Assembly (NCBI GenBank): GCA_002898575.1
Contig: BEHT01000004.1
Coordinates: 1 to 64,000 of the forward strand
Length of the DNA: 64,000 bases
Source: a bacterium HR17
Lineage (GTDB): Bacteria > Armatimonadota > Fervidibacteria > Fervidibacterales > Fervidibacteraceae
Reading direction: 5' to 3'
Position numbers and translations under genes: made by a program. This document shows positions 6,809-32,755 of the stretch, in pieces. The notes below the pieces were generated by a model. The model saw only the letters and a list, made by a program, of their open reading frames with translations. It had not been told where the DNA came from and ran no database searches. Each line of letters begins with the position of its first letter. Position 1 is the stretch's first letter.

Positions 6809-9088
6809 TTATCGGCGGGTCAACCCGCTGAGCGCCCGTAGATGTTCCATTTCACTCAAGACAAAGCGAGGCGCAGGATACCGCATCGGTTTGCCTAACC
6901 GTTCCGCCAGCGTCATCAGCACACGCCCCAACGACCGTGCGCCCGCTGGCGGTTCAACGGCACGCCGCACCGCTTGCACTGTCCCCGCCCAGTTGGTGTA
7001 ACTGCCATTTTTCTCCACGAAGGTCAAATCGGGCAAAACAAGCCACGCCTTTTCCGTCAACCGCGTCCGCACCGATGCGCTGACGACGAGATAAGGGGCT
7101 TGTCCTAAGGCATCAACCACTGTGGTGGGCAATTCGTGAACGGGCGACGGGTCAACAGCCCACACCAATTGCAATTCGCCCCGCTTACAGGCTTCCAACG
7201 CGCTGTGGACATCGTGTCCCCGTTGTGGCGGCGTCCCGTTGCCCCACAGCCGCTGCAACACCAACTGCATCGCTTCGTCGCTGACCGGGCGCAAACCGGG
7301 CAGGTAGTCGGGCACCAGCCCCGCTTCCATACAGCCCCGCGCATTGGCGTGGTGAAGGGCGTAACACACTGCGTCCCAGTCAGGCTTGACGAGATGTTGG
7401 CGCAATTGCAGCACGGTCTCTGGTGCGATCGGCTGCGGGTCGTCGCTGGATGCACAAATGACGACGGGGCGCTGTGCCTTTGCCAACGCTTCCGCAATTT
7501 CAGCGAGCGTTGCAGGCGCAACACCTACCGCATGAGCAGGCGGATAACTTTTTGCTCCCGCCAGCGCATCGGCCAACGCACGGGCAAACCCGTCCAACCC
7601 TTGATCCCCAGTTCCCACATTTTCCAGCCACTTCCACGCCCACCGCTTCATGCGCGGCTTGTCTTCTGTCACACCGACGACGATGAGTTTGGCGTTGCGC
7701 TTCTTGACTGCTTGCAAAATCCACAGCCACGCAAGGGGCAGGTGGCGGTAAATGTTGCAGCCTAAGATGAGCGCGCAATCGGTCTTTTGCAAGGCGTAAA
7801 CGTCCACGCCTGACCCGACTTTGCCTCCCTGCCGCACCAATTCGCTGACCAACGGGTCGCGCTCCATAAAATCCACGCTGCCTGACCCGACGACGCTGCG
7901 GGCAAACCGTTGGAACAGGTAGGCTTCCTCATTCGTCATCGCCGCTGTCCCCAAAAACACCGTCTCATGCCCCGCACTTCGCATCATCGCCGCCAACGCA
8001 TCTAACGCCCGCTCCCAACCGACTTCCTGCAATGCGCCGTTGACCCGCAGCAGGGGCGTGACGATGCGGTGCTCCGGGTGTGGGTAGCGTTGCTCAAATC
8101 GCCCGATGTCACACATCCAAAGGTCATTGACGCGCAAGTTTTCGCCGGCTGGCACAAACCGCACGGGGAAGTTGAAACGGCAATCGGCGAAGATGCTGCA
8201 ATGGATGGGGCACTTGGGACAAACGGTTTCCGTGCGCTTCAGTTCCCACGGACGCGCCGCAAACCGATACTGCAAACTCGTCAGCGCTCCGACGGGACAG
8301 ATGTCAATCACATTGCCCGAAAAGATGTTGTCCAGTTCCTCACCCTCCGCGACCGCGATGTAGCTCCACCAACCCCGTTCTACCTGCTCCAACTGCTTTT
8401 CGCCGACAATTTCGTCGCAGAAGCGGATGCATCGCTTACACATGATGCAGCGCTCACGGTCAAGAGCGATATAGGGGCTGATGGGCAGAGGTTTCACAAA
8501 GGTGCGTTTTTGTTCAGTGAAGCGCGAATAAGGACGCCCTTGCACGAACGCCGCATTTTGCAGGGGGCATTCGCCCCCCCGGTCACACACGGGGCAATCC
8601 AGCGGGTGGTTGATAAGCAGAAACTCCATGACCGCGCGCCGCGCCGCTTCCGCTGCCTCACTCTTGACCTTCACGACCATCCCGTCACTGACCGGCATCA
8701 CGCACGACGGCTGCGGCTTGGGCATCCATTGAATGACAGGGTTGCCTTGCTCATCTGTTGCGATAGTCCCGTCAGGGTTGCGCCGAGGCGTGCCGACCTC
8801 CACGAGACATTGTCGGCACACACCGACCGGCTCAAGGCGTGGGTGATAGCAAAAATGCGGGATGTCAATGCCCAGCATCTTGGCAGCCTCAATGATGAGC
8901 GTCCCTTCAGGCACCTCTATCGTTTGCCCGTCAATCGTGACCCGCACCTTTTTCCCTTCCGGCGGCAGTTCCCGGCGCCGCAAACCGACCGTCGTGCCCG
9001 CCAAGATGTTGGCAGGGATTTCCTTCTCCAGCGGCACCTTACCCCAAAACGCCTTGACTAACTCGTCCCATGTCAAATAACCCGCCAT
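6809..9088 (-). CDS. nuoG: NADH-quinone oxidoreductase subunit G
   Basis: This large iron-sulfur subunit of complex I passes electrons from NuoF towards NuoB. A 2Fe-2S ferredoxin-like domain has Cys at about 80, 91 and 94 (HFCYHPRLEPVGVCRQCLVE). The N5 site is HPLDCPVCDRGGECPLQN with its His ligand, followed by RCIMCKRCIRFCDE. The C-terminal part is a degenerate molybdopterin-oxidoreductase fold, with an N7-like site at CPKCPIHC. ATG 9088 follows GAGGTGACAAAA; the ATG six codons upstream lacks such a site. About 40 residues precede the ferredoxin domain. It should follow nuoF but is separated from it by a 7-kb block on the other strand. Confidence 0.96.
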   Translation of the reverse strand: MAGYLTWDELVKAFWGKVPLEKEIPANILAGTTVGLRRRELPPEGKKVRVTIDGQTIEVPEGTLIIEAAKMLGIDIPHFCYHPRLEPVGVCRQCLVEVGTPRRNPDGTIATDEQGNPVIQWMPKPQPSCVMPVSDGMVVKVKSEAAEAARRAVMEFLLINHPLDCPVCDRGGECPLQNAAFVQGRPYSRFTEQKRTFVKPLPISPYIALDRERCIMCKRCIRFCDEIVGEKQLEQVERGWWSYIAVAEGEELDNIFSGNVIDICPVGALTSLQYRFAARPWELKRTETVCPKCPIHCSIFADCRFNFPVRFVPAGENLRVNDLWMCDIGRFEQRYPHPEHRIVTPLLRVNGALQEVGWERALDALAAMMRSAGHETVFLGTAAMTNEEAYLFQRFARSVVGSGSVDFMERDPLVSELVRQGGKVGSGVDVYALQKTDCALILGCNIYRHLPLAWLWILQAVKKRNAKLIVVGVTEDKPRMKRWAWKWLENVGTGDQGLDGFARALADALAGAKSYPPAHAVGVAPATLAEIAEALAKAQRPVVICASSDDPQPIAPETVLQLRQHLVKPDWDAVCYALHHANARGCMEAGLVPDYLPGLRPVSDEAMQLVLQRLWGNGTPPQRGHDVHSALEACKRGELQLVWAVDPSPVHELPTTVVDALGQAPYLVVSASVRTRLTEKAWLVLPDLTFVEKNGSYTNWAGTVQAVRRAVEPPAGARSLGRVLMTLAERLGKPMRYPAPRFVLSEMEHLRALSGLTRR

Positions 9089-9645
9089 TTTTGTCACCTC
9101 AGGCAATGTCGTCGCTCGGAGTGCCTTTCAAATACTGCCACAGCTTTACCCTTTGCGTTGTCCGCTTATGCCTCCACTCCGCCGTGTTTGCCCCTGCCCA
9201 GGCGCACCCGCCACTGCTTCCTGCAAATCGCCCACCGCCTCACCCACGCGGTTTAACCGGCGGATATAATGGCGCAACTCGTGCGCTATGCACGCCGGGG
9301 CTGGTTCTGTTGTTAGCGCCCATATCCTCAGCTGCCATCACCGGATGGCACAAAGTTACATCGCATCGGCTCAGCACCCTCTTCGGCAATGGCGCTCGGT
9401 TGCTGCGAGGCGGTGGTGAGCGACAGCCCCGGTCGCCGTCCTTGACGCACCGCACCAGTGGCTCTTTCGCCGATGACCGTTCTTTGCCCCGATGCCTCCA
9501 ACGCTGCCTTGCCGATTGAGCATCGCAGCCAACCATTTTTGCGCACTATCCCCAATTTCTCAGGACTTAGGTGGTTGACACCATCTCTTTCGTATGGCAA
9601 AGTTGGGGCGATAAGGTTTTGGCTTACAAGGAGCGTGATGTTTGC
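9089..9645. other. Intergenic region between nuoG and the first inserted glycosidase gene
   Basis: About 550 bp hold the upstream regions of two divergent genes. A TATAAT hexamer lies at 9265-9270 on the plus strand with no convincing -35 box. Several short frames are open but lack ribosome sites and recognisable products. I see no clear promoter for nuoG on the minus strand, although it would need one, being cut off from nuoF. Confidence 0.6.
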
Positions 9646-12600
9646 GTGGTGCGCGTAAGTGGGTTTGTGGCTGCGGCGGTGACGCTGGTTTGTTTGTTCG
9701 CTTCAACACAAGTTTTTCGCTTCTCCGATGACTTCTCTCAATACCCCATTGGCAGCGTCGGCGAACCCAACTGGGATGTCAACCACATCGGGTTTGAAAT
9801 TCAGGATGGGAAATTGGTCGCCGAAATTGCTGGGGGACGAGGAAACGCTGTGTTGACAAAAGCACCAATCGGCAGGGTCGTCACTGTTGAAGCGATCGTG
9901 ACCGTCCATCGCGCAATAACTTCCGCTTGGAAAATCGCCGGCGTGGGAATTTACCTTGACGAACGCAATTTTTGGCATGTAGCCCTCGTTGAATCTCCTG
10001 ATACTCAAGGCAAAAAGCACTTCGCTGAGTTGCACGAAATGCTTGACGGGGTCTGGCTTGCCGAGGGTTTGGAATCGACTCGCTTGACAACAGAGGCGGA
10101 CACTGGCGGTTTTGATTGGCAGTATGAGCGCCCATATCGTTTGCGCCTAACTCTCACCAAAGAGCGCATCATCGGTGAAGTTTTTGCGTCGGATGGAACT
10201 TTGCGTTACCGACGCGTTTACAAGTTTGACAACAAAGCCGTGACTTTCGGACGACCGATGTTGAGTTGCTACGGCTTCGTTGCTTCCTTTGACGATGTTC
10301 AAGTGGAGGTGAGTGAGGTGGTGCCTGAACCGAAAGAGCAACGCAAAACTTATCCTCCTTTCGTTTCTCGTCCCTCGCCCCACGCCCCTCGTCCCAGAAA
10401 ACCCACAGGCTTTTTCCGAACCGAGCAAATCAACGGCGTTTGGTGGCTCATTGACCCGAACGGCTACCCGACTTTGAGTATCGGCACTGACCATGTCAGT
10501 TACTTCGTCCACTGGTGTGAGAAGTTGGGCTGTGCTCCTTACCACGAAAATGTCAAGCGAAAGTATGGGAGCGAAGAGGCGTGGGCAAAGGAAGTAGTGA
10601 GAAGGTTACTTTCTTGGAACTTCAATGTTTTGGGTGCAAACAATTCTGTCAAGGCTCGCTATCAAGGGTTGGCTCACACGGAGTTTTTGAGTTTCGGCAG
10701 CGATTTCGCTTCCATCGCCGACATTGTCCCGAAAGTTCACTGGACTGGTTTCCCCGATGTCTTTGACCCTCGCTTTGAGCGGTTCTGCGACTTGCGAGCG
10801 AAACAGCGCTGTGCTCCAAACCGCAATGACCCTTGGCTTTTGGGCTACTTCTTGGACAACGAACTTGAATGGTGGGGCAAATCGGGACGACCTTGGGGAA
10901 TGGCGGAAGAGGCTTGGAAGAAGCCACCAAACCGCCCTTGCAAGCAAGCGTTAGTGCAAATCGTGGGGGAATTTTATCGCAACGACATCAATGCCTTCAA
11001 CTCCGACTTTGGGACAAAATTCAGCAGTTTTGAAGAGTTACTGCACTCACAAGAACCAACCCAACCACTCACAGAACGAGGGCAAAAAGTGCTGATGGCT
11101 TTCGTGAGAGAAGCAGCGGAGCGTTACTTCCGCATCACCGCTCAAGCCATCAAAAAGCATGACCCCAACCATCTGAACTTAGGTTGCAGGTTTGCTTGGG
11201 ATGCACCTGAACCTGCATGGGAGATGGCAGGCAAATACTGTGATGTCGTTACTGTCAACCTTTACCCTTGCATTGATTTGGAACGAGGTGTTGTGCTCGC
11301 CATTGAAGAACACTTGCGCAAGCGATACGAAATTTGTAAGAAACCTATCATCGTGACTGAATGGAGTTTCCCTGCTTTGGATGCGAAAGACAGTCAAGGT
11401 AGACCGCTCCCTTGCAAACACGGTGCTGGGATGAGAGTTGACACGCAGGAGCAAAAGGCTCGTTGTTACGCTATCATGCAGCGAACGCTTTTCTCGCTCC
11501 CGTTCGTCGTCGGTTCACATTACTTCATGTGGGTTGACGAACCCGCGTTGGGCATCTCAAGCACTTTCCCTGAAGACAGCAACTATGGACTTGTCAACGA
11601 AGCCGACGAACCTTATCCCGAACTGACGGCGATGGCGACGAAGGTGAACGCACAAATGGTCGCTTTGCATGTAGGCAAGACAGCGGAATTAGAAGTCACC
11701 GTTACAGCGGGCAAAGATAATCAAATCATTGTCAAGTCAGCGAATAAAGGGGCAGTATCGGCGGATTTCACTCTGGAAATCTGGCTCAATGGCAATCGGA
11801 CGGAGCAGAAGGTAACACTCAAGCCTAAAACGGAGCGAACCATAGCGTTGCCTGTATCTCCAAAATCCGACCGCTATGCAACTTATTGCATCGCCATTTG
11901 TGACCCTGAAGGTCAAGTGGTTGAGCGCAACAAAGCGAACAATATCGCAGAACTCGTTTTGCCGCCGAAGGGGAAAGGCAAGCAAGTTTGCGCTGTCGTT
12001 TGTAATCCGACGAAACAACTTTTGCAAAATGTGACCGTGACGATCCCCGTTGGGCAGCGGGTCAGTAACCTTGACGACATTGTCGTGCGCGATGCCGATG
12101 GCAACATAGTGCCATCCCAAGCAGACCCCAAATCAGGTCTGCTTACCGTCCTGCTTTCTGCCCTGAAGTCTTACAGTTCCGTCACTCTTTGGCTGGAGCG
12201 ACAAAAGGGGTTGAAATTTGAAATTCCTTTTACGGCTTTCCATGCAGCGAAAGGTGAAGGTTTCAACATTGAGACGCCTTTGCTCCGCCTCCTTAAAAAC
12301 GAACCCGACGGAGACGCTTTTGACCGAATTTACTTGCGAGGGGTGGAAGCAGCCGAAATTGAACTGGGGAGTTTCACTCCACTGATTTGGCAAGTTGTCG
12401 CTGGGCAAAACTTGTGGGTGAAACCTGACAGGGTTGAAAAGTTTGAAGTTGTGGAAGTCGGTCCAGCAAGGCTCGTCGTGGACATAGTTTTTGTCAAGGG
12501 ACAAGGAACGAAGGGAAAAGGAGGGGTGATAACGGAGTTCGGGAAAGGCGGAAATTTTGAACCGTTGAGAGCAGAGCCACAACCTTTCAGGTGCGCCTAC

Positions 12601-13068
12601 AGGTTCACTTTCTTCCCACAGCAACCTTTCTTCCTCGTTCAGTGCCTTTGGGTTGAAAACACGGGCAGGTATGATTGGCAATGGAGAGGCTATTACCACT
12701 ACACACTCTCGCAAATTGGAGGCAATGGCAGCGATGACGAAGTTGGCGGACCCAATGTGCCCAATTATTGGCTTGCGTTCGCTTCTTGGCGTGACCCGAA
12801 ATTGAAAGTGCATTATGGCGTCGTTCCATTGCAGGAAGACGAACGGCTTTCTGTCTACTTCTGGAAAGACGAAGGCGGAGAGCAGCATCCTGATTGTCAC
12901 CGCAAGCTAGAGTTGACTTTGAAAGCGGGTCAGCGTTGGCAGCCGCAAAAACCTGAACCCATTGTTGCCGTTTTTGAGGTTCGCGAAACCGAAGAGGACC
13001 CACGCCCATGGAGCAACTTGATTCAGACCTTGAAAGCGTGGTCAAAAGTTGGCACAGCAATGTTTTGA
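9646..13068 (+). CDS. Secreted multidomain glycosidase-like protein (clan GH-A, agarase/GH50-like core)
   Basis: The 1140-residue protein starts with a signal peptide (MVRVSGFVAAAVTLVCLFA). A LamG/DUF1080-like beta-sandwich (about 24-205) is followed by a Pro/Ser/Arg linker made by a heptamer tract, then a TIM-barrel core (about 253-680) opening with GFFRTEQINGVWWLIDPNGY, which resembles GH50-type agarases. The likely acid/base is Glu406 in YFLDNELEW and the likely nucleophile Glu572 in IIVTEWSFP. A CARDB-like domain (about 682-772) and a long beta-rich C-terminus follow. GTG 9646 lies 12 nt after AAGGAG; an in-frame GTG at 9571 would put 25 residues before the signal peptide and is less likely. 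Substrate is unknown. Confidence 0.75.
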   Translation: MVRVSGFVAAAVTLVCLFASTQVFRFSDDFSQYPIGSVGEPNWDVNHIGFEIQDGKLVAEIAGGRGNAVLTKAPIGRVVTVEAIVTVHRAITSAWKIAGVGIYLDERNFWHVALVESPDTQGKKHFAELHEMLDGVWLAEGLESTRLTTEADTGGFDWQYERPYRLRLTLTKERIIGEVFASDGTLRYRRVYKFDNKAVTFGRPMLSCYGFVASFDDVQVEVSEVVPEPKEQRKTYPPFVSRPSPHAPRPRKPTGFFRTEQINGVWWLIDPNGYPTLSIGTDHVSYFVHWCEKLGCAPYHENVKRKYGSEEAWAKEVVRRLLSWNFNVLGANNSVKARYQGLAHTEFLSFGSDFASIADIVPKVHWTGFPDVFDPRFERFCDLRAKQRCAPNRNDPWLLGYFLDNELEWWGKSGRPWGMAEEAWKKPPNRPCKQALVQIVGEFYRNDINAFNSDFGTKFSSFEELLHSQEPTQPLTERGQKVLMAFVREAAERYFRITAQAIKKHDPNHLNLGCRFAWDAPEPAWEMAGKYCDVVTVNLYPCIDLERGVVLAIEEHLRKRYEICKKPIIVTEWSFPALDAKDSQGRPLPCKHGAGMRVDTQEQKARCYAIMQRTLFSLPFVVGSHYFMWVDEPALGISSTFPEDSNYGLVNEADEPYPELTAMATKVNAQMVALHVGKTAELEVTVTAGKDNQIIVKSANKGAVSADFTLEIWLNGNRTEQKVTLKPKTERTIALPVSPKSDRYATYCIAICDPEGQVVERNKANNIAELVLPPKGKGKQVCAVVCNPTKQLLQNVTVTIPVGQRVSNLDDIVVRDADGNIVPSQADPKSGLLTVLLSALKSYSSVTLWLERQKGLKFEIPFTAFHAAKGEGFNIETPLLRLLKNEPDGDAFDRIYLRGVEAAEIELGSFTPLIWQVVAGQNLWVKPDRVEKFEVVEVGPARLVVDIVFVKGQGTKGKGGVITEFGKGGNFEPLRAEPQPFRCAYRFTFFPQQPFFLVQCLWVENTGRYDWQWRGYYHYTLSQIGGNGSDDEVGGPNVPNYWLAFASWRDPKLKVHYGVVPLQEDERLSVYFWKDEGGEQHPDCHRKLELTLKAGQRWQPQKPEPIVAVFEVRETEEDPRPWSNLIQTLKAWSKVGTAMF
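10368..10395. repeat. Degenerate heptanucleotide tract inside coding sequence
   Basis: Four consecutive heptamers fit the pattern WCGYCCC. They encode the Ser/Pro/Arg-rich linker just before the TIM-barrel core of the host protein. The tract aligns with 14498-14525 in the next gene at 26 of 30 positions, counting two bases before it. Confidence 0.7.
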
Positions 13069-13244: not shown

Positions 13245-16200
13245 ATGAGTTCCAAACCTCGGCTTTTAGCAATTTGCTTGGTGATCGGGCTTGGAACGCG
13301 GTTGATAGGAGGTGGCACTATGGCTCAAGGTATTTTGAGATTGAGCAACTTGAAAGTTGAACAAGTGACCGCCCGACCGAACCTTGTTCCCAACTGCAGT
13401 TTTGAGCAGGTTTCAAGCGGTGGTACCCTTATCGGTTGGCAGTGGGACAAAAGGAACACAGACTCAACTTGCACGGTTGACGAAACGCAGGCTCGCAGCG
13501 GTAAGCGCTCCCTCAAGTTCATCAACAACACCCCTTTTGGTGCCCATGTTTACGGGACACTCTGGCTGGCTGAACCAATTCGCTTGCAAGCAGGTAAACC
13601 TTACACGCTGAGCGCATATATCAAGTCTGATGACCCTGGCATCGCTTGGATTGGCGGAGGAGCCAATTGGCAATTTCGGCTCCGCATACCGCCAACTCAA
13701 GGCAAGTGGCAACGCATCAGCATGACCTTCGTCCCGTCGGAGCGGGACACCAATTTCGTGCTGCGAATTGTCACCGAAAGTCCGACAAAAGGTTTTTGGG
13801 TTGACGATGTGAAATTAGAGGAAGGCAACGAGGCAACTTTCTGTCAACCCTACGACGAACGAGTTGTTTTAGAACCGACTCAAATTGAGCGTAATGTTGA
13901 AGGCGATGGCGAATTCACTCTCACCTTTGACCTGTTTCTACCTGAACCTTTGCCGAAGGCGCTTTTCAGGGTTCAAATTGGACGAACCAACTTCTTGCAA
14001 AAATCGCTCCCGCTTCAGCAAGGCACATGGCGTGTTCTTGTCAAGGGTGAAGCGGTCGGGGTTGACGATTCGCCGAAAATGCTCACCTTGCAACTCTTTG
14101 ACGGTAGCAAGAGGATTGCGAGTGCTGAAACCATTGTTCGCTTCTTTTCCCCGCAAAACGCTTCGTCCCGCCTGAACTCGCTGCGCCGGAAACTGTCTGC
14201 GCTCAAAAGCCGACTTGACAGTTTGAAAGGTAAAGGCATGGACATCAGTTACCCGTTGGTCACTTTCACCGTGCTTGAGAATTTCGTCAACTACGCTGAG
14301 GAAGACCTCAAACACAGCGAAACACGACGAGCCTTCATGCAAATTTCCGACATGGAAGCGATGGCGAAAAGGTTGGAACGAGAGTTGAGCGAAGCGCTGG
14401 CTGGCAGAAGAAACTTCCCTGAGGTCCCGAGATGGACGGGAACCGAACGACCGAAAGTCGTTGGGCCTTCATTTGTTGCCCCAGTTACCTTTCCATCTCG
14501 CCCTTCGTCCCTCGCCCCTCGTCCCGTTTTCTTCGTCGGCTACGGTCACTTTGGGCAAGTTCGCGCTGACATTGAAAAGTTCCCTCGCTACGGCATCAAC
14601 ATAATCCAAATTGAGTTCGGACCAAACAGCGTTTTCCCAAGTGAAGGGGTCGTTTCCGAAGAGCCGATTCGCGAGACTCTTTCCGTCCTTGACAGGGCCG
14701 CGAAAGCAGGGGTTGCTGTCAACCTGCTCATTAGCCCACACTATTTTCCCCGATGGATGCTGGAAAAATACCCGCATTTACGAAAGCGCCGTGAGGGTTT
14801 TTTGCAGTTTTGTCTGCACGCCCCTGAAAGCCAGGATTTGCTCAAGCGTTACATCGCCAAAGTAATCCCGCCACTCAAAGACCACCCTGCACTGCACAGC
14901 ATTTGTCTGACTAACGAACCAGTTAACGCTGAAGAGCCATGTGAGTTTGCCCTTCGCGATTGGCACGATTGGCTTCGCAACCGACACGGAAACATTCAAA
15001 CTCTCAACAAAAGATGGGGAACTAACTTTGCTCGTTTTGAAGACATTCCTTTGCCGAACCCGCTTAATCCGACCCTCCCTCCAAGTCCCCAATCCATTGA
15101 ATTTGTTCGCTTCAACCAAGAGTGGTTCGCAAACTGGCATAAGATGCTCGCCGATGTAATCAAAGCAATTGCCCCCGACTTGCCCGTTCACGCAAAAGCG
15201 ATGACTTGGACAATGGTCAATGACCCTGATGTGCGCTATGGTGTTGATGCTGAACTTTTCGCTTCCTTCAGCGACATCAACGGCAACGACAGCGTGAACT
15301 TCTATTCGCATGGCATCGGCGAGTTCGCTCAAGGCTGGCTACTCAACGCGATGGCATACGACTTGCAGCGGTCTGTCAAGGACGCCCCAGTCTTCAATAG
15401 CGAAAACCACATCATCCCCGACCGTGAGACCAGATATGTTCCGCCAGAACACATTCGTGCCGCTTTGTGGCAAGGCGCTGTTTACGGGCAGAGCGCGACG
15501 ACAATTTGGGTGTGGGAACGAACTTTTGACCCTAAAAGCGATTTTGCGGGCAGCATCATGCACCGCCCTGCATGTGCAGAAGCAGCTGGATTGACTTGCC
15601 TTGACTTGAACCGACTTGCGGAAGAGGTAACAGCGCTCCAAAAAGCGCCAGCACAAGTCGCTATCCTTCACAGCGTTTCATCTCTCGTCTGGGACGGCGG
15701 TCGCTACACCGATTGCCGAAACAAACTTTACACAGCGTTGACTTTCACAGGTGTCAAGGTCGGGTTTGTCACAGAGCGGCAGTTGGAACGGGGAATTGAG
15801 CCTGATGTTCCCGTCCTGTTCGTTCCGAACATTGTCCACCTTTCAGATGCAGCCTTTGAAACTCTAAAGCACTACAAAGGTCATATCGTCCTCGTCGGAA
15901 ATGGCAACCTGTTAAGCCGAAACGAGTATGGAATAGCGAGGAACACAGGACAATGGGCACAAAGCAAAGCGGAGCAAATTGGGTTTGAATGCGGCAGGAC
16001 AAGTTGGCGTGACCTTTGGCAAGCCCTTTCAGAGAAGTTGAAAGCGTTAGGCGTTAAACCACTTGTGGAGGTTCGTGATGAAAAGGGAGCACGAATTTGG
16101 GGCGTTGCTTGGAGATGCGTTGAAACGCCAAGAGGCGTTGTCATTAACCTTTGCAATTACCGACACGACCCAGTGAAAGTGAGATTGTGGAGCAACGGAG

Positions 16201-17940: not shown

Positions 17941-17987
17941 GAGCGTCACCCCTCATCTTTCAGTGCGTCGCTTCCGCTTTTGTTCTC

Positions 17988-18016
17988 TTTACATGCTCCT
18001 ATGATTAGGTTATAAT
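17988..18016 (+). promoter_or_regulatory. Sigma-70-type promoter of the DNA methyltransferase gene
   Basis: TTTACA at 17988-17993, a 17-bp spacer, and a perfect TATAAT at 18011-18016. The methyltransferase start is about 60 bp further on. Transcription would begin near 18023, inside the 38-bp repeat. The hexamers also overlap the upstream region of divergent nuoF. Confidence 0.7.
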
Positions 18017-18018
18017 GG

Positions 18019-18056
18019 TAACAGCATTAGAGCCAAAAGGCAATGGCGCGAGAAGT
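18019..18056. repeat. 38-bp direct repeat, left copy, bounding the restriction-modification module
   Basis: It matches 20343-20380 at 32 of 38 positions in the same orientation, with the core AAAAGGCAATG identical. It lies just after the -10 box of the methyltransferase promoter. The two copies enclose exactly the methyltransferase and endonuclease genes. Confidence 0.8.
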
Positions 18057-23835: not shown

Positions 23836-23938
23836 AAACACAGGTCTATCTCGTGCTGACAAAATTTCTCGGCAGGATGTAAGACCCTGCCTTACTTCAC
23901 GACGACAGCGAGAAATTGGGCAAAAGGAGGTTGAAACG

Positions 23939-24691
23939 ATGAGACGGCGCGAGTGGTTGCAGTTGGGCAAGAGCCTCATCTTCGCTGTGACGGCGGCGCA
24001 GTTGGGCGTGGCACAGCAGCGAACAAAGAGCAAGCAAATTTATGTGCTCGTTTGGTCGGAGCGAACGGAACCGAAAGAGCATTACCCAGAAGGTCACAAC
24101 GGCGTTATCGCTGCTTTCCTGAACAAAGACCCAAACATCAAAGCAGAGGCGGTCAGCATTAACGATCCAGAGCAAGGTTTGCCTTCTGAGAAGTTACAAC
24201 GGTGCGATGTTTTGATTTGGTGGGGGCATGTCCGACATGGTGAAGTGCGGGATGACATTGTTGACAAAATTGTCAAGCGAGTGAAAGATGATGGGATGGG
24301 CTTCATTGCCCTTCATTCGTCCCACTACGCAAAGCCGTTCCAACGGTTGCTCAACGCCCCAGGGCATCTTGGTGGAGTTGGTCATGGTCGCGAAGAGTAC
24401 ATTTGGGTCGTCGCCCCAAACCATCCCATCGCAAAAGGCATTTCGCACTTCACCTTGCCCGACGAAGAGTTTTACGCCGAACCGTTCCAAGTCCCTCAAC
24501 CCGAAACGGTTGTCTTCATCTCAACTTTCGGCTCGGGTCATTGGTTCCGAAGCGGGTTGACTTGGAGCGTAGGCAAAGGGCGAGTTTTCTACTTCCGACC
24601 AGGACACGAAACTTTACCAACGATGAAAGACGAGCGAGTGCTTAAAATCATCCGCAACGCCGTTTATTGGTGCGCTCGCCGCAACCCGTGA
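23939..24691 (+). CDS. ThuA-like (trehalose-utilization family) protein with Tat-type signal
   Basis: The 250-residue protein starts MRRREWLQLGKS, followed by a hydrophobic stretch: a twin-arginine type export signal. The mature part is a class I glutamine-amidotransferase-like fold typical of ThuA: QIYVLVWSERTEPKEHYPEG, CDVLIWWGHVRHGEV, FIALHSSHYAKPFQRL, PNHPIAKGISHF and GKGRVFYFRPGHET. ThuA proteins are linked to sugar oxidation and catabolism, but the biochemical role is poorly fixed. ATG 23939 follows AAAGGAGG. It belongs to the same-strand sugar-degradation cluster. Confidence 0.88.
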   Translation: MRRREWLQLGKSLIFAVTAAQLGVAQQRTKSKQIYVLVWSERTEPKEHYPEGHNGVIAAFLNKDPNIKAEAVSINDPEQGLPSEKLQRCDVLIWWGHVRHGEVRDDIVDKIVKRVKDDGMGFIALHSSHYAKPFQRLLNAPGHLGGVGHGREEYIWVVAPNHPIAKGISHFTLPDEEFYAEPFQVPQPETVVFISTFGSGHWFRSGLTWSVGKGRVFYFRPGHETLPTMKDERVLKIIRNAVYWCARRNP

Positions 24692-24749
24692 AACGACTGA
24701 CTTGCGTTCAAACAACCGTCAATTCAAACTTCAGTTGGAGGTGGCGAAA

Positions 24750-25391
24750 ATGGGATTTAGGTTGCAGGAAGGTCAGAAGGTGGTTTTTATCGGGGACAGC
24801 ATCACCGACTGCGGTCGGCGCGATATCGCTCCACCGTTAGGCAACGGCTATGTGAAGTTCGTCTCAGACTTGATTGCTATTCGCTATCCCTCCCTTTCGC
24901 TAACGACTGTCAACAAAGGCATCAGCGGCAATACAGTTGCTGATTTGCGTGAGCGTTGGCACGATGATGTCTTAACACTCAAACCCGATTGGGTTTCCGT
25001 GCTCATCGGTATCAACGATGTCCACCGCACTTTACGCAACGAACCAACAGCAGTTCCACCCGAACGCTACGAGCAACTTTATCGTGAGTGCTTGACACTT
25101 ACGAAGGAACGAACAAGTGCTCAACTCGTGTTGATGGAGCCGTTTTACATCAGCACCGATACGGAAACGAATTCGTGGCGGACGGAAGTTTTGCGGGCAT
25201 TGAACGATTATCGCCAAATTGTTCGCAAGTTAGCGAGTGAGTTTGATGCCGTCTTTGTCCCGCTGCACGATTTGTTCCAAGAGCAATTACGATACCGTGC
25301 TGCCGATATGTTTTGTCCCGAACCCGTTCATCCCAACGCTGTCGGGCATTTGCTCATTGCCCACGCATGGTTGACAGCGATGGGTTGGTAA
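24750..25391 (+). CDS. SGNH/GDSL hydrolase (probable carbohydrate acetylesterase)
   Basis: The 213-residue enzyme has the four SGNH blocks: VVFIGDSITDCGR (Ser nucleophile), NKGISGNTVADLRERW (Gly), VSVLIGINDVHR (Asn), and CPEPVHPNAVGH (Asp/Glu-x-x-His). It has no signal peptide, so it probably acts in the cytoplasm. ATG 24750 follows GGAGGTGGCG. Relatives remove acetyl groups from pectic and other polysaccharides. Its neighbour, a GH106 rhamnosidase, makes deacetylation of a rhamnose-containing glycan an attractive but unproven role. Confidence 0.9.
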   Translation: MGFRLQEGQKVVFIGDSITDCGRRDIAPPLGNGYVKFVSDLIAIRYPSLSLTTVNKGISGNTVADLRERWHDDVLTLKPDWVSVLIGINDVHRTLRNEPTAVPPERYEQLYRECLTLTKERTSAQLVLMEPFYISTDTETNSWRTEVLRALNDYRQIVRKLASEFDAVFVPLHDLFQEQLRYRAADMFCPEPVHPNAVGHLLIAHAWLTAMGW

Positions 25392-25657: not shown

Positions 25658-25661
25658 GTAG

Positions 25662-25682: not shown

Positions 25683-25714
25683 ATCGGTGCTTTAGAAAAG
25701 GGGCTGCGTTGAAT

Positions 25715-25818
25715 GGTCAGAGGGCGGCTTTTCTGAGCCGCCGAAAATGGCATGAACACCATAAGGGCGCGTCAGGAGACGCGTCCTCCGAGGCACTGTC
25801 AGAGGAAAATTCAACAAA
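25715..25818 (-). repeat. Long hairpin repeat element, inverted copy
   Basis: Read on the minus strand it follows the elements at 55.2 and 60.5 kb from TTTGTTGAATT through the two hairpins. Stems are GACGCGT/ACGCGCC (one mismatch) and GGCGGCT/AGCCGCC. It is the most diverged of the three full copies. Confidence 0.8.
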
Positions 25819-25833
25819 GCAGAGGTGATGGCG

Positions 25834-28800
25834 ATGTGGATGAAGGTGAAAGTTGCAGCGGTGTGGTTTGCTTTACTGTCAGTCATTTCGTTTTGCAAGG
25901 CGCAAGTTTCGCCTACCGCACTTCAGCGATCCTTCCGTCAACCGCCTGCGTCCGCCAAACCTCACACTTGGTGGCATTGGGTTAACGGCAATGTGACGAA
26001 GGAAGGCATCACTGCTGATTTGGAAGCATTGGCGAAAGCAGGCATCGGTGGGGTGCAACTGTTCAATGTTGATGTTGGGGTGCCGAACGGTCCCGTCAAG
26101 TTTTTCAGCCGTGAATGGTTTGACTTGTTCCGCCACGCTGTTCGGGAAGCAGGGCGATTGGGTCTTGAATTTTGTGTCCACAACTGTGCTGGTTGGTCAA
26201 GCAGTGGCGGTCCTTGGGTCAAACCCGAACACGCAATGCAAATGGTCGTGACGAGCCAGATCCAAGTTAAAGGTCCCATGAAGTTCGCTGACAAATTACC
26301 TCAACCTGAAACCCGAGCAGGTTACTACCGTGATATCGCGATCCTCGCATTTCCGACACCAAAGGGAAACTTGAGAATTGAAAACTTACGAGCAAAAGCA
26401 GCATACGAGCGAGCCAACAACATCGTGCCTGCAAAAGGTGTTGCTGCTCCGTCTGAAGCAGTTATCAAACTTTCGTCCATCGTAGACTTGACAAACCGCT
26501 TACAACCCGATGGTCGGTTGGATTGGGAAGTGCCAGAAGGTGATTGGACGATTTTGAGAATTGGACACACGCCGACAGGCAAAGATAACCACCCTGCACC
26601 TCAAGAAGGGCGTGGGCTTGAAGTTGACAAGATGAGCCGTGAGGCGTTGGATGCTTTTTGGAAAAGTGCAATTGAACCGTTGTTGAGGGAAGTCGGTCCC
26701 CTCGCAGGCAAGGTTTTCAACAATGTGCTTGTTGACAGTTACGAAGTCGGCTGCCAAAACTGGACGCCAAAGTTCCGAGAGGAGTTTCGCAAGCGGTGCG
26801 GTTACGATTTGCTGCCTTATTTGCCTGTCTTGGCAGGTTATGTCGTTGAGAGCGTTGAGGTCAGTGAGCGATTCCTTTGGGATTACAGGCGAACTATCGC
26901 CGACTTATTTGCCGAGAACTACTACGGCTATTTCGCTGAACTATGTCGGAAAAATGGTTTGCTCTTTTCAACTGAACCGTATGGCAACGGTCCCTTTGAA
27001 GACCTTGTTTGTGGTGGGCGTGCTGACATCCCGATGGGTGAGTTTTGGGTTGGGACAAATTGGGGCATGGAAACTTGCAAATTGGCTGCGTCCACTGCCC
27101 ATGTTTACGGGAAACCAATAGTCGGCGCTGAAGCATTCACTGCGACACCTGAGCACGGTCGTTGGAGCACTCACCCTTACATGCTCAAAGCGATTGGCGA
27201 CCGCGCTTTTTGCGAAGGTATCAATCGTTTCATCTTCCACACAACCGCACACCAACCTTGGTTCAATGTCCTGCCTGCCATGACGATGGGACCTTGGGGC
27301 TCTCATTTTGGACGAACTCAAACTTGGTGGGACAACGCAAAGGCTTGGATTGATTACCTGACCCGTTGTCAATACCTGCTTCAACAAGGCACTTTCGTCG
27401 CTGACATCTTGTTCTTCGTCGGCGAACACGCTCCAAATTCCGCACCATACAGACCTGACTTGAAAGCGAAAGGTTACGACTACGATGCTTGCCCGACGGA
27501 AGTGTTAATGCGAGCAAGGGTGCGCAACGGTAAAGTTGTTTTGCCGAGTGGAACGAGTTACGAGGTTTTAGTTTTGCCCGATTCGGACGCCATGACACCT
27601 CAAGTTTTGCGTAAAATCCGAGAACTCGTCTCTGCAGGCGCAACAATTATCGGTCCCAAACCGACTCGCTCACCGAGTTTGCAAAACTACCCGCAATGCG
27701 ACGCAGAAGTGCAAAAGTTGGCGAACGAAATTTGGGGCAAATTGAACGGCAAAACCTTTACGGAGCGAAGTTACGGCAAGGGCAAAGTTTGCTGGGGCAA
27801 AGCGGTTGAGGATGTTCTGGCTCAAAAAGGTGTCAAGCCCGATTTTGAATTTAAAGGTAGCGGGTTTGCCTCAATCGCTTGGATTCACCGACGAATCGGC
27901 AATCTTGACATTTACTTCGTCGCTAACCAACGGGAACGATGGGAGACTGTTGAATGCACCTTCCGAGTGAGAGGGAAAGTTCCCGAACTTTGGCATCCCG
28001 ACTCAGGAGAAATTGAACAGGCGACCGCATTTGGGGAGAGGGATGACCGCATCACTGTTTTGTTGCAATTGCCTCCTTACGGATCGTTCTTTGTTGTCTT
28101 CCGATCGGACAGAAAACCCATTGATGCAGTCGTTTCCTTTCAACGAAATGGCACAAATGCTTGGTTGCCAGAACGAGCACCGACAAAGAGACTTGAAATT
28201 CGGAGGGCAATTTACGGCGTCCTGAACGATCCGAACAGGTGCGTGGATGTGACGAAGCAACTTCAAGCGATGGTGCAGGATGGGGAACTTGTCGTTCAAG
28301 CCAGCAACGCTATCGCTGGTGACCCTGCTCCTTTCGTTGTCAAGCAGTTGCGAGTTGACTATGCCGTAGACGGTGAGGAACGAACGGTGATTGTGCGTGA
28401 AGGTGAGGTGCTGCAAATTCCTGAGGGCACAAGAGTGCTTGCTCGCTTTCCTGCCGATTTGAGGGTGAACGAGAAAGGGCAAGTTGAATTGGTGGCGTGG
28501 CAAAGTGGCGTTTACGAAATCAAGACCCGCACTGGCAAGAAGCGAACAATAATGGTCAAGTCCGTCCCAGAACCGCTGGCGTTGGACGACAATTGGGAAG
28601 TTCGCTTTCCGCCAAATTGGGGCGCACCTGAGGTTGTGAAGTTTGAGCGGTTGATTTCGTGGTCGCAACATCCAGATGCTGGCATCCGTTACTTTTCAGG
28701 CACAGCAACTTATGTGCGCGAGTTTGAAGTCCCGAAAGACTGGCTCGGTGAAGGTAAGGTTATCGTGTTGGATTTGGGCGTCGTTCGGCATATCGCTGAA

Positions 28801-29151
28801 GTGCGAATTAACGGCGTCGCATTGGGTGTCCGATGGACCCCCCCGTTCCGATTTGAGATCACAAAATTTGTCAAGCCCGGTAGGAATCGGCTTGAAGTGC
28901 GGGTGACGAACACTTGGGTCAATAGGTTGATCGGCGATGAGGAATTGCCTGACGATTGCGAGTGGCACTCCGACGGCAGATTGATGGCGTTCCCTCAGTG
29001 GTTCGTTGAAGGCAAACAGCGACCGTCAGGGCGACTGACTTTCACAACTTGGAAGCACTATCGCAAAGGCGCTCCTTTGGAAGAAGCGGGGTTGCTCGGT
29101 CCAGTCCGTATCATCGTTGGATCTCGCCACCCATTGCAAACCCAACGATGA
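25834..29151 (+). CDS. GH106-type alpha-L-rhamnosidase, secreted
   Basis: The 1105-residue protein has a signal peptide (MWMKVKVAAVWFALLSVISF, cut near CKAQ). The start of the mature protein, PHTWWHWVNGNVTKEGITAD, then LEALAKAGIGGVQLFNVD, is the GH106 signature. Further family-like stretches are EFCVHNCAGWSSSGGPWV, NVLVDSYEVGCQNWTPKF and LFSTEPYGNGPFED. A C-terminal galactose-binding-like jelly-roll (about 913-1043) shows YVREFEVPKDW and AEVRINGVALGVRW. GH106 enzymes release alpha-linked L-rhamnose from rhamnogalacturonan and related glycans. Several ATGs are in frame; ATG 25834 best fits the AGAGGTG site. It is the last gene of the plus-strand block before nuoE. Confidence 0.88.
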   Translation: MWMKVKVAAVWFALLSVISFCKAQVSPTALQRSFRQPPASAKPHTWWHWVNGNVTKEGITADLEALAKAGIGGVQLFNVDVGVPNGPVKFFSREWFDLFRHAVREAGRLGLEFCVHNCAGWSSSGGPWVKPEHAMQMVVTSQIQVKGPMKFADKLPQPETRAGYYRDIAILAFPTPKGNLRIENLRAKAAYERANNIVPAKGVAAPSEAVIKLSSIVDLTNRLQPDGRLDWEVPEGDWTILRIGHTPTGKDNHPAPQEGRGLEVDKMSREALDAFWKSAIEPLLREVGPLAGKVFNNVLVDSYEVGCQNWTPKFREEFRKRCGYDLLPYLPVLAGYVVESVEVSERFLWDYRRTIADLFAENYYGYFAELCRKNGLLFSTEPYGNGPFEDLVCGGRADIPMGEFWVGTNWGMETCKLAASTAHVYGKPIVGAEAFTATPEHGRWSTHPYMLKAIGDRAFCEGINRFIFHTTAHQPWFNVLPAMTMGPWGSHFGRTQTWWDNAKAWIDYLTRCQYLLQQGTFVADILFFVGEHAPNSAPYRPDLKAKGYDYDACPTEVLMRARVRNGKVVLPSGTSYEVLVLPDSDAMTPQVLRKIRELVSAGATIIGPKPTRSPSLQNYPQCDAEVQKLANEIWGKLNGKTFTERSYGKGKVCWGKAVEDVLAQKGVKPDFEFKGSGFASIAWIHRRIGNLDIYFVANQRERWETVECTFRVRGKVPELWHPDSGEIEQATAFGERDDRITVLLQLPPYGSFFVVFRSDRKPIDAVVSFQRNGTNAWLPERAPTKRLEIRRAIYGVLNDPNRCVDVTKQLQAMVQDGELVVQASNAIAGDPAPFVVKQLRVDYAVDGEERTVIVREGEVLQIPEGTRVLARFPADLRVNEKGQVELVAWQSGVYEIKTRTGKKRTIMVKSVPEPLALDDNWEVRFPPNWGAPEVVKFERLISWSQHPDAGIRYFSGTATYVREFEVPKDWLGEGKVIVLDLGVVRHIAEVRINGVALGVRWTPPFRFEITKFVKPGRNRLEVRVTNTWVNRLIGDEELPDDCEWHSDGRLMAFPQWFVEGKQRPSGRLTFTTWKHYRKGAPLEEAGLLGPVRIIVGSRHPLQTQR

Positions 29152-29321: not shown

Positions 29322-29840
29322 TCATTGCCCTTGCCCGATCAACGCTTGAGCGCCATTGCCGTAGCGTTGGCGCAATTCGGCGATGATTTGTTCTACCTTG
29401 TCAGGCGTTACTTTTTCCAGCAACTCTACTGCGTTGACCAGCAACACAGGGGCTTTGTCGCAGGCGGCGAGGCACTCAAACTCTTCCAGCGTGAACAAAC
29501 CGTCGGGGGTGGTTTCGCCGACTTCGACACCCAGCACCTCTTTCAGCTTTTGCAGCGTCTTATCTGCACCCCACAGCAGGCAACTGATGTTCGTGCACAG
29601 CATCAGTTGGCACTTGCCGACAGGGTGGTCGTGAAACATCTCGTAAAACTTGATGATGGCTTCTACGTGCACGGGCGTCGTATCTGCCAGGTCGGCGATT
29701 TCGGGCACTGCCTCGTGTGGGATGTAACCGAACCGCTCTTGCACCAGCCACAGCAACGGCATGATGGCTGCTTTCCGCTGCGGATATTGGGCAATAATGC
29801 GTTCGGCTTCTTGACGCATCTCTTCGGTGAGCACTGCCAT
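29322..29840 (-). CDS. nuoE: NADH-quinone oxidoreductase subunit E
   Basis: The 172-residue subunit carries the thioredoxin-like 2Fe-2S domain of complex I. Ligand cysteines are seen in LCTNISCLL and in FECLAACDKAPVLLVN. The N-terminal helical bundle has AIMPLLWLVQERFGYIPHEA and HVEAIIKFYEMF. It follows nuoD after 75 bp. Normally nuoF comes next; here an 11-kb plus-strand block intervenes and converges on its 3' end. Confidence 0.96.
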   Translation of the reverse strand: MAVLTEEMRQEAERIIAQYPQRKAAIMPLLWLVQERFGYIPHEAVPEIADLADTTPVHVEAIIKFYEMFHDHPVGKCQLMLCTNISCLLWGADKTLQKLKEVLGVEVGETTPDGLFTLEEFECLAACDKAPVLLVNAVELLEKVTPDKVEQIIAELRQRYGNGAQALIGQGQ

Positions 29841-29915
29841 CGGTCAACACACCTCGCGCGTTTCGGCGATCTCTGTTGTTATTCCTTCAAGGGCGGGTGG
29901 GAATGCGTGTCCTCG

Positions 29916-31100
29916 TCACCGGTCCACCTCACCCATCACAGGGTCAAAACTGGCAAGGATGGCGATCAAGTCGGCGATGAGGTGCCCTTCAGCGGCGATG
30001 GGCAAAGCGTGGACATGGATAAACGACGGCGCTCGCACATGCATCCGATAAGGTTTCTCGCTGCCGTCGCTGACGATGTAAAACCCGACTTCTCCCCGCG
30101 CGCTTTCCACTGCCGCGTAGGCTTCTCCGGGCGGGACGGGGTAGCCGCGACTGTAAAACAAAAAGTGGCGGATGAGCGCTTCCATGTCTTTGTCCAAGCG
30201 GTCTTTAGGCGGAGGTGTCGCCCACGGATGGTCTGCCAAGACGGGACCGTTGGGCAAGTTCTCCATAGCCTGCTGAACAATTTTCACGCTCTCCAACATC
30301 TCGCGCATTCGCACCCAGTAGCGGGCGAAAGTGTCACCGTCCGTTTCCGTCACGATGTCAAAATCAAAGTCGTCGTAGGACGAATAGGGCATCGTTCGGC
30401 GCAAGTCCCACGCCACGCCCGATGCCCGCAAGCACGGTCCTGTCACGCCCCACGCGATCGCATCTTCGGGCTTAATGGTCCCGACACCTTTGGTGCGTTC
30501 CAACCAAATCGGGTTTTGGCTGATGAGTTCGTCCAACTCTTGCCATGCTTGCGGGAACTCCCGTAAAAATTGGCGACATCGGTCTATCCAGCCGTCGGGT
30601 AGATCGTAACGGACACCGCCAGGGATGATATAGGAGTAAGTCAACCGCGCCCCGCACAGCATCTCAAACAAGTCCAAAATTTTCTCCCGCTCCCGAAAGC
30701 AGTAGAAAAACGCGCTAAGAACACCCAACTCCAACCCCGTCGTGCCTAACCACACCAAGTGGCTGGCGATGCGCTGCAGCTCGGCGACGATGACTCGCAA
30801 ATACTGCCCCCGCTTGGGCGGCTCAATCCCCAGCAACTTTTCCACCGCCAACGAATAGGCGAAGTTGTTCGTCATCCCTGACACATAGTCCAAGCGGTCG
30901 TTGAGCGTGATGACCTTGTGGTAGGTTTTGAACTCCGCTTCCTTTTCAATGCCTGTATGTAAGTAGCCAATGACAGGTTCCACATCCAGCACCGTCTCGC
31001 CTTCCAGCGTCAACAGCAACCGCAGGACGCCGTGCGTGCTGGGATGTTGTGGACCCATGTTGATGGTCATCGTCGCTTGCGTCCGTTCCACCGTTGCCAT
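29916..31100 (-). CDS. nuoD: NADH-quinone oxidoreductase subunit D
   Basis: The 394-residue 49-kDa-type subunit helps form the quinone site next to cluster N2. Clear motifs are NMGPQHPSTHGVLRLLLTLEGE, VIGYLHTGIEKEAEFKTYHK, DYVSGMTNNFAYSLAVEKLLG, GVTGPCLRASGVAWDLRRTMPY and ARGEVGFYIVSDGSEKPYRM. It ends with the usual GEVDR. It lies 6 bp after nuoC and is separate from it; there is no NuoCD fusion. Confidence 0.98.
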   Translation of the reverse strand: MATVERTQATMTINMGPQHPSTHGVLRLLLTLEGETVLDVEPVIGYLHTGIEKEAEFKTYHKVITLNDRLDYVSGMTNNFAYSLAVEKLLGIEPPKRGQYLRVIVAELQRIASHLVWLGTTGLELGVLSAFFYCFREREKILDLFEMLCGARLTYSYIIPGGVRYDLPDGWIDRCRQFLREFPQAWQELDELISQNPIWLERTKGVGTIKPEDAIAWGVTGPCLRASGVAWDLRRTMPYSSYDDFDFDIVTETDGDTFARYWVRMREMLESVKIVQQAMENLPNGPVLADHPWATPPPKDRLDKDMEALIRHFLFYSRGYPVPPGEAYAAVESARGEVGFYIVSDGSEKPYRMHVRAPSFIHVHALPIAAEGHLIADLIAILASFDPVMGEVDR

Positions 31101-31106
31101 TGGGCA

Positions 31107-31640
31107 TCACCATTCCTCGTAACGCTCTTCGGTTGTCCCAAGCGACATCCCTGGCTGCCAAAAGAGCGGAAAGTCTTTGCGCAAGGGGTGCCCCGGAAAT
31201 TCGTCGTAAGTCAGGATGCGTTTTAGGTTGGGATGCCCTTCAATGCGCACGCCGAACATGTCCCAAATCTCCCGCTCGTAGGGGTTGGCGCTGGGGTAGA
31301 TGGGGCAAACCGTCGGCACCCACGCATCATCGCTACGAACCTGCACCTTTACCCGCAACCGCACCCGTTGCGACAGCGACAGCAAATGGTAAATGACTTC
31401 AAAGCGCGGTTCGCCCCGCAGTGGGGCGTAATCCACTGCTGTCGCATCCACCAGCATCTCAAACCGCTCTTGATCCCGCAGGTAACGCATTGCATCCGAA
31501 AGCGCCTCCCGGCGCACCGTGACGGTCAATTCTCCGTTGTGCACCTTGATGTCTTCCACAGCGTCGGCGTCTAAGTGCTCCCGCAACCGTTCGGCAATTT
31601 CTGTCAAGCGGTCAAGGGATCGGTGATGCACTTCTGCCAT
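31107..31640 (-). CDS. nuoC: NADH-quinone oxidoreductase subunit C
   Basis: The 177-residue 30-kDa-type subunit shows DATAVDYAPLRGEPRFEVIYHL, PTVCPIYPSANPYEREIWDM, FGVRIEGHPNLKRILTYDEF and GHPLRKDFPL, all classical. It belongs to the peripheral arm of complex I. It lies 21 bp after nuoB in the operon. Confidence 0.98.
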   Translation of the reverse strand: MAEVHHRSLDRLTEIAERLREHLDADAVEDIKVHNGELTVTVRREALSDAMRYLRDQERFEMLVDATAVDYAPLRGEPRFEVIYHLLSLSQRVRLRVKVQVRSDDAWVPTVCPIYPSANPYEREIWDMFGVRIEGHPNLKRILTYDEFPGHPLRKDFPLFWQPGMSLGTTEERYEEW

Positions 31641-31661
31641 CGCGCTCCTTCCCTCCCCCTC

Positions 31662-32285
31662 TCACGGGACTTCACGCCGGCGATGTTCACCGACACGCTC
31701 GCGACGGATTTTCTCCTGCAACTTCAGGATACCGTCAATGACGGCTTCGGGGCGTGGCGGGCAACCCGCGATGTAAACATCCACCGGCACGACCATGTCC
31801 ACGCCTTGCACGATGGCGTAGTTTTGAAACACGCCGCCGCATGACGCGCAAGTCCCCATTGCGATGACCCACTTGGGATTGGGCATTTGGTCGTAGATGC
31901 GTTTGAGCACGGGCGCCATCTTCCACGAGCAGCGCCCTGCCACGATCATTAAATCCGCCTGACGCGGCGAACCCCGAAACACCTCTGCTCCGAACCGCGC
32001 CACATCGTTGCGGGAAGCGACCATCGCCATCATCTCAATGGCGCAACATGCCAACCCGAAAGTCGCCGGCCACAATGAATTAGCCCGCGCCCAATTGACC
32101 AACGCTTGGACGGGATTGACCCGCAAAAATTCCTCCAACTTCGCCAGCAACACATTGCGCCCGATCACTTGGCGCATTTCTTCGTCCACGCCCTCATCTT
32201 CCAACATTTCTCCAGTTGCTTGGGCGGGGGGAGCGATGACCAATTCCCGTCCGTCAATCGTGGTCTTGACGACGCTAACCTTCAT
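31662..32285 (-). CDS. nuoB: NADH-quinone oxidoreductase subunit B
   Basis: The 207-residue subunit carries the N2 4Fe-4S cluster: [12 protein letters not shown] gives the paired Cys, [15 protein letters not shown] and [17 protein letters not shown] the others. It has an N-terminal extension of about 50 residues before [19 protein letters not shown]. Its ATG overlaps the nuoA stop by 4 bp, which indicates translational coupling. Confidence 0.98.
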
Positions 32286-32755
32286 CGCACTTCGCCTCCT
32301 ACAGGGACAGCAGGTTGGTGGGGCTCAGCGGACGCGATTCGGGTGGGCTGTTCAACAGGCGGGGCTGGCGCCTCCGGTTGCTCCTGCTCCCACCATTCCC
32401 ACTCAAACGCACCCGTGCGCAATAGGTAGATGTAGCCGACGACCAGAATGCCCAAAAACACCGCCATCGCCGTCAGCGCCGCCGTCCCCAACTCACGGTA
32501 AACGACCGCCCATGGGTAGAAGAAGACGACCTCCACATCAAACACGATAAACAGCATGGCAATGACATAGAACTTGATGGGGAAACGCTGCCGGGCGTCA
32601 CCGGCGGGCTCGTTGCCGCACTCATAAGCGACCACTTTGCTCCGTTTCGGTTTGGCTTCCAACAGTCCGATGATGTGCGATAACAACAACATGCCTGCGG
32701 CAACAAGCACCGCCAGCACAATAGCGACACCGATTGGGATGTAGTGTGCCAACAT
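32282..32755 (-). CDS. nuoA: NADH-quinone oxidoreductase subunit A
   Basis: The 157-residue membrane subunit has three membrane segments and the family pattern [20 protein letters not shown], then [21 protein letters not shown] Pro/Glu-rich C-terminal tail of about 35 residues is longer than usual. ATG 32755 follows AAAGGAGG; an upstream in-frame start ten codons earlier lacks a site. It is the first gene of the nuo run and diverges from a Crp/Fnr-type regulator. Confidence 0.95.

Follow-up and report, generated by a model that had tools for sequence, protein, structure and literature searches.

The 64,000-nucleotide stretch of the bacterium HR17 genome analyzed here (Armatimonadota, Fervidibacteria; positions 1 to 64,000 of contig BEHT01000004.1), referred to below as the window, carries the complex I genes nuoA to nuoG, interrupted at the E/F and F/G junctions by two blocks of genes on the opposite strand. 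This split arrangement is a true observation and, so far as could be tested, no artefact. It is likely that the window shows an ancestral nuoA-N operon at one point of its break-up, caused by horizontally moving genes that landed at the E/F and F/G junctions.

The nuo Genes and the Intervening Blocks

The nuo genes of the window are the following.

nuoA: 32282-32785, minus strand, likely ATG at 32755 (start read from the sequence)
nuoB: 31662-32285, minus strand
nuoC: 31107-31640, minus strand
nuoD: 29916-31100, minus strand
nuoE: 29322-29840, minus strand, TIGR01958 above cut-off
nuoA-nuoE unit: 29322-32755, minus strand, Pfam PF00507, PF01058, PF00329, PF00346 and PF01257
nuoF, isolated: 16651-17949, minus strand, likely ATG at 17941, PF01512, PF22461 and PF10589, TIGR01959 above cut-off
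nuoG, isolated: 6809-9106, minus strand, likely ATG at 9088, TIGR01973 above cut-off

The genes A-B-C-D-E, F and G thus keep the canonical order and orientation that the initial annotation, a first reading of this DNA, had described. The isolation of nuoF was also correctly seen, the distances then given as about 11 and 7 kb being measured at 11,380 bases to nuoE and 7,562 bases to nuoG. FMN, SLBB and 4Fe-4S domains are all present in NuoF, which aligns to PDB 8e9g_F, and solved complex I chains align with NuoE, NuoF and NuoG across the cofactor regions. A Shine-Dalgarno-like GAGGTGAC precedes the likely nuoG ATG at 9088 and occurs in two congeners as well.

The main insert genes are eight open reading frames (ORFs), among them those of three glycoside hydrolases (GH). 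In the E/F block, from nuoF toward nuoE, they are:

18079-19446, plus strand, type II DNA methyltransferase, divergent from nuoF (PF01555; PADLOC PDLC03306, E 8e-76)
19454-20264, plus strand, type II restriction endonuclease-like gene (PADLOC PDLC03541, E 8.8e-8)
20404-23835, plus strand, 1143-amino-acid (aa) protein with a C-terminal CBM9-like domain (PF06452, E 1e-10)
23738-24691, plus strand, ThuA-family protein (PF06283, E 1.5e-28)
24702-25391, plus strand, GDSL-type esterase (PF13472, E 2e-27)
25825-29151, plus strand, GH106 alpha-L-rhamnosidase-like protein of 1108 aa, converging on nuoE (PF17132, E 2e-225)

The F/G block holds:

9571-13068, plus strand, GH50-like enzyme (residues 324-702; PDB 4bq2, E 1e-39) with a CARDB domain (PF07705), divergent from nuoG
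13245-16295, plus strand, GH42-like enzyme (PF02449, E 5e-27) with a CBM_4_9 domain, converging on nuoF

All eight are on the plus strand, which bears out the remark that the inserted genes oppose the operon. Residues 298-663 of the 1143-aa protein resemble PDB 5jvk (phmmer E 3.5e-12).

Complex I Loci in Related Genomes

The window was compared with relatives in a panel of 61 genomes, namely its own (G000; 75 contigs, 96% complete, 2.6% contamination) and 60 others, of which two are from the same genus (G001 and G002), one from a sister genus of the same family (G003) and one from a different family of the same order (G004). The two congener assemblies are fragmentary (G002 63% complete, G001 61%). 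A nuoF search matched 58 of the 61 genomes, and the neighborhood of nuoF was surveyed at 29 loci of relatives with 1.5-kb flanks. In this survey 13 loci were set aside, most of them taken for NADH-module or hydrogenase paralogs by frame length and neighbors. D-E-F occur on one strand at 15 of the 29 loci, 12 of these 15 also having G; one of the 29 is that of G003.

In G003, A, C, D, E, F and G lie on one strand within 8 kb, nuoB being elsewhere, and nuoE and nuoF are separated by a 0.9-kb pair of HEPN and nucleotidyltransferase genes (locus L129, 11203-12015). There is a run of 10 N near the nuoF start; the junction is taken as real because the first NuoF residues lie beyond this run. Since the sister genus clusters E, F and G and D-E-F stay together at 15 of the 29 relative loci, gene order shows the split to be derived. 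Comparing the locus in relatives, as the initial annotation had suggested, thus indicates that the split is not ancestral.

Breaks at these same junctions are also seen in the congeners. In G002, DciA, Cpn60 and phosphoenolpyruvate carboxylase genes come after nuoE, the end of nuoF faces ThuA-family and DUF6785 genes, and a divergent STAS/HATPase gene precedes nuoG. In G001, MFS and TPP-enzyme genes precede nuoG. The F/G junction is thus broken in all three species of the genus and the E/F junction in at least two, with different neighbors each time. Because these congener junctions hold other neighbors, the present inserts need not have been the first to break the operon.

Composition and Origin of the Intervening Genes

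The two blocks have G+C contents (GC) of 0.50 and 0.51, versus 0.587 in a 216-kb sample of G000 (18 stretches). Equally AT-rich overlapping stretches of this sample number 0 of 72 at a length of 11 kb and 13 of 396 at 6.7 kb. At third codon positions, the G+C content (GC3) of the insert genes is 0.47-0.57, versus a median of 0.686 for 157 mechanically defined ORFs of the sample. The composition changes near gene ends (on a 200-base scale), and nuoF itself is slightly low (GC 0.557, GC3 0.63). AT-rich patches also occur elsewhere, 12% of 216 one-kb bins of the sample having a GC of 0.53 or less. The initial annotation had argued from two 60-base samples, with 27 G+C at 11341-11400 and 37 at 43021-43080. 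Both counts are exact, the contrast being weak evidence, as 5.8% of the 60-mers of the window have 27 G+C or fewer; moreover, the first sample belongs to the F/G rather than the E/F block. The difference in composition itself holds at the larger scale, and uniform composition was not found.

Three of the eight insert genes have orthologs in G002: GH106 (85% identical, contig C34, cut by the contig end), GH42 (77%, C249) and the GH50-like gene (75%, C271, cut by the contig end). Further orthologs are in G004 for GH42 (C143) and in G003 for the GH50-like gene (C24). The three G002 contigs are different ones, away from nuo as far as they reach, which fits a piecemeal arrival. Silent sites were compared through the identity at four-fold sites in excess of that expected from composition, with reciprocal pairs between genomes as reference. 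Between G000 and G002, the excess is 0.32 for GH106 (95% bootstrap 0.23-0.39), 0.31 for GH42 (0.24-0.38) and 0.40 for the GH50-like gene (0.23-0.57; 67 sites, 212 aa), where the median over 47 reciprocal pairs is 0.056 and nuoG, nuoD and nuoE give 0.13, 0.09 and 0.09. The other pairs above 0.2 are an antisense pair, a long repetitive protein (0.31), a pseudopilin-like protein (0.22) and the nuoL of a second complex I (0.21). Two antisense ORF pairs (excess 1.00 and 0.82), which are not genes, are included in the 47-pair count and in a 59-pair count. Against G004, of a different family, GH42 shows an excess of 0.32 versus a median of 0.046 over 30 pairs.

Because silent sites in GH106, GH42 and the GH50-like gene differ far less than in core genes, for GH42 also against another family, we read these three genes as having moved horizontally among members of the group, later than the split of the species. 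A recent import of these three genes from outside the phylum was considered and found no support, their closest relatives among the 61 genomes being of the same genus, family or order. The silent-site evidence covers three of the eight insert genes, the other five being undated. The intervening DNA thus appears to be of separate origin, on composition for both blocks and on silent sites for these three genes. The idea of stepwise acquisition at permissive junctions, put forward in the initial annotation, is borne out in part: composition and silent sites support acquisition at gene junctions, while the inserts now present need not be what first opened them.

Dispersal of Complex I in the Genome

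G000 carries two complex I sets. The 14-subunit set occupies eight loci, three on the contig of the window (A-E, F and G) and five on others: H (C46), I (C59), J-K-L (C13), M (C41) and N (C33). All eight lie away from contig ends. All of nuoA-N are thus present, and a single contiguous operon was not found. M and N were assigned to this set rather than to the second by their closer orthologs in G003. Six of the 13 usual junctions are kept and seven are broken. The adjacencies kept, A-B-C-D-E and J-K-L in G000 and F-G, H-I and L-M in G003, all match the usual nuo order. Since H, I, JKL, M and N are also elsewhere in the genome, a dispersed complex is a better description than the operon "split twice" of the initial annotation: the E/F and F/G splits are real, and form one piece of a wider dispersal. 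The dispersed genes presumably still provide a working complex.

In relatives, the first set of G003 has B, H-I, L-M and N on four further contigs, J and K not being located. The neighbors of nuoN are the same in G000, G002 and G003, namely a conserved protein (no Pfam match; 56% and 43% identical to the G000 copy) and then a small gene read as rpsO, so that the separation of nuoN is old. The second set consists in G000 of A-C-D-H-J-K-L-M on C63, B-I on C21 and N on C42, and in G003 and G004 of A-C-D-H-J-K-L-M-N plus a separate B-I pair; in G002 its L, M and N are on three contigs with other neighbors. A 984-aa antiporter-like ORF considered as a spare NuoM was rejected, being a Mrp-type antiporter (MnhB, MbhD and MbhE domains).

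A general loss of gene order was rejected on the two runs checked, those of ribosomal and atp genes. In the ribosomal run, 25 of the 26 minus-strand ORFs of a G004 stretch recur in G000 and G003 in unchanged order, all on one strand, the 26th being short and outside the run, and atpB, atpF, atpH, atpA, atpG and atpD are in order within the window. An EF-G-like gene (identified by Pfam in G000 and matched in order in the other two genomes) stands inside the ribosomal run in all three (L205 9957-12020, L206 10932-12986, L207 6151-8238). Elsewhere in the window, a single ORF at 40960-41868 combines a type II secretion F-like domain with a ClpX-type zinc finger; a stretch 52% identical to it lies beside a dnaE match in G003.

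Transcription of the Separated Genes

A -10-like TATAAT closely precedes the ATG at 32755 that probably starts nuoA. Because the opposed blocks leave the nuoA promoter hardly able to read them, nuoF and nuoG each probably have their own promoter, and have 137 and about 480 bases of upstream space, respectively. A scan for a two-hexamer consensus, which is weak evidence, detected no promoter-like site on the minus strand immediately upstream of nuoF, nuoG or nuoA. On the plus strand, a promoter-like TTTACA-17-TATAAT matching 11 of the 12 consensus positions lies at 17988-18016 before the methyltransferase gene.

No common element was detected upstream of 19 complex I units of four genomes, using exact 5-base inverted repeats and sequences read by eye. 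A Crp/Fnr gene divergent from nuoA (32809-33498) was considered as a shared regulator and rejected, being 27% identical to the Crp/Fnr-like neighbor of the G003 nuoB. That the three NADH-module units "must be coordinated some other way," as had been stated, is thus a deduction for which neither a shared element nor a conserved linked regulator was found.

The Restriction-Modification Pair and Repeated Sequences

The adjoining methyltransferase and endonuclease-like genes correspond to a type II restriction-modification pair next to nuoF, by the PADLOC matches given above. The long frame of the endonuclease-like gene is 19593-20264, its PDLC03541 match beginning at profile position 52. A 51-aa frame from the ATG at 19454 stops in an A-run at the start of this long frame; searched alone, this upstream piece gave no match. 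With its likely start in another frame, the gene may be broken or phase-variable, or may reflect an assembly error. The pair is bracketed by direct repeats:

18014-18056, 43-bp direct repeat, left copy, 36 of 43 positions identical to the right copy
20338-20380, 43-bp direct repeat, right copy

Their local alignment score is 51, versus a maximum of 28 in 300 shuffles. The repeat may be a trace of the pair's own insertion. Alternatively, it could be a shared leader, both copies preceding gene starts.

A double-hairpin repeat lies between the GDSL and GH106 genes (25714-25823), with further copies in the window at 55177-55279 and 60457-60567. Its fold has a z-score of -3.6, and its left half has 42 strict matches in 510 kb of G000, versus none in 141 kb of G002 and none in 172 kb of G003. 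It was considered as the insertion mechanism and rejected, being absent from the nuo junction sequences. The same repeat occurs in tandem at L205 12080-12640, within the ribosomal run, where it follows the EF-G-like gene. Another repeat, of about 100 bp and hairpin-bearing, stands directly upstream of nuoG in G002 (L132 8863-8970) and near the nuoL of the second complex; it is also found at L133, L168, L170, L172 and L197, and at L199 and L246 (G004). In G002, two methyltransferase-like genes and one endonuclease-like gene (names read from the sequence) are a few genes from the GH50-like gene (L255 1610-4658). They are possible restriction-modification genes, again near a moving glycoside hydrolase.

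How the Operon May Have Come Apart

The likeliest course would be a piece-by-piece insertion into gene junctions, leaving the nuo genes whole and in order. Glycoside hydrolases with their neighbors and a type II restriction-modification pair would have landed in the E/F and F/G junctions, all opposing the operon, and transcription of nuoF and nuoG would now have to start in the space ahead of each gene. Breakage extends beyond these two junctions, other subunits being at five more loci and the pieces of relatives lying among unrelated genes.

Several observations weigh against this course. Neither integrase nor transposase was found in the ten block ORFs scanned, and the repeat search gave no repeat bracketing a whole block, only the 43-bp one at the restriction-modification pair. 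The restriction-modification pair, the ThuA and GDSL genes and the 1143-aa gene have no ortholog in the congener sequence sampled, whole genomes not having been searched. Against G003, the excess of the GH50-like gene is 0.02, as under vertical descent. Core genes differ in GC between species, which lowers silent identity and for which the composition correction may be partial; the silent-site signal may thus partly mean a GC shift of core genes that the inserts escaped. As for gene order, the congener contigs end inside nuoD, nuoF and nuoG, in assemblies only 61% and 63% complete. At locus L014 of G020, one of the 13 set aside, a nuoF-sized gene has G and no nuoE within 1.5 kb, so that the E/F separation may not be unique. 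Finally, because the congener junctions hold different neighbors, the original break may have been a rearrangement.

Such a rearrangement in the ancestor of the genus, after which the present inserts entered junctions already open and no longer operonic, is the most serious alternative, and is clearly less likely than insertion. It would account for the breaks at E/F and F/G in G002 and at F/G in G001, all with unrelated neighbors, for the seven broken junctions out of 13 in the 14-subunit set of G000, and for the second-set L, M and N on three contigs of G002. However, the pieces in the window span 26 kb and have kept the order and orientation they had at first, a state that is unexpected after repeated rearrangement and explained by simple insertion. 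Chimeric joins could be suspected in an assembly of this contig number, completeness and contamination, with composition shifts at the junctions. They are nonetheless very improbable: four joins would be needed, each between whole genes, one or both junctions also depart from normal adjacency in two other assemblies of the genus, and a congener contains orthologs of three insert genes at 75-85% identity.

Selection might also have uncoupled the NADH module (E, F and G) from the rest, with its dosage set separately, as both junctions are inside this module and nuoF and nuoG each have their own upstream space. We consider this improbable, no shared upstream element having been found; moreover, the module is not singled out, because H, I, JKL, M and N are dispersed too, as are L, M and N of the second complex in G002. 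Also improbable is the idea that the spot before nuoF is a recurring landing site of addiction-type modules. Modules at or beside the promoter of nuoF, a gene whose loss the cell could hardly afford, would thereby be shielded from deletion, would supply the stranded gene with a promoter and would start the break-up of the operon. This idea is based on the restriction-modification pair before nuoF in G000 and on the HEPN/nucleotidyltransferase pair before nuoF in G003, putatively a toxin-antitoxin pair; the contigs of both congeners lack the 5' flank of nuoF.

Comparison With Known Systems

Part of a study of Fervidibacteria GH50 enzymes proposes that they were transferred to archaea (PMC11079163). 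The GH50-like and other glycoside hydrolase genes described here are comparable, in their transfer signal, to the mobile glycoside hydrolases of Fervidibacter-type Armatimonadota. Here, however, genes are passed on within a single order, and they lie inside a respiratory operon. The restriction-modification pair between 43-bp direct repeats is reminiscent of mobile type II restriction-modification units with a long target duplication, but the two repeats share 84% identity and an empty site was not found. In Aquifex, and for the cyanobacterial ndh genes, genes for one complex are at several loci. The likeness to the complex I described here is in the several loci per complex. Part of a paper on Aquifex deals with Nuo trees and dispersed ribosomal operons (PMC3879981).

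A close parallel is the life cycle of operons; part of a study of phenylacetate genes describes operons as formed and destroyed (PMC2653477). As in that cycle, relatives keep the operon, other genes stand between intact genes and parts disperse. What differs is that the same junctions are broken in relatives with different contents, and that an interrupted yet ordered stage is seen in one contig. Operon loss is usually deduced from end states, and here graded stages are available for one complex: mostly clustered in the sister genus, interrupted but ordered in the window and more widely scattered in the congeners, two other large gene runs remaining ordered. Such a series could be used to ask whether it matters that complex I subunits are co-transcribed, and at which points an operon of this kind tolerates insertions. 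The window is a clear example of a known process, operon break-up, rather than a new system.

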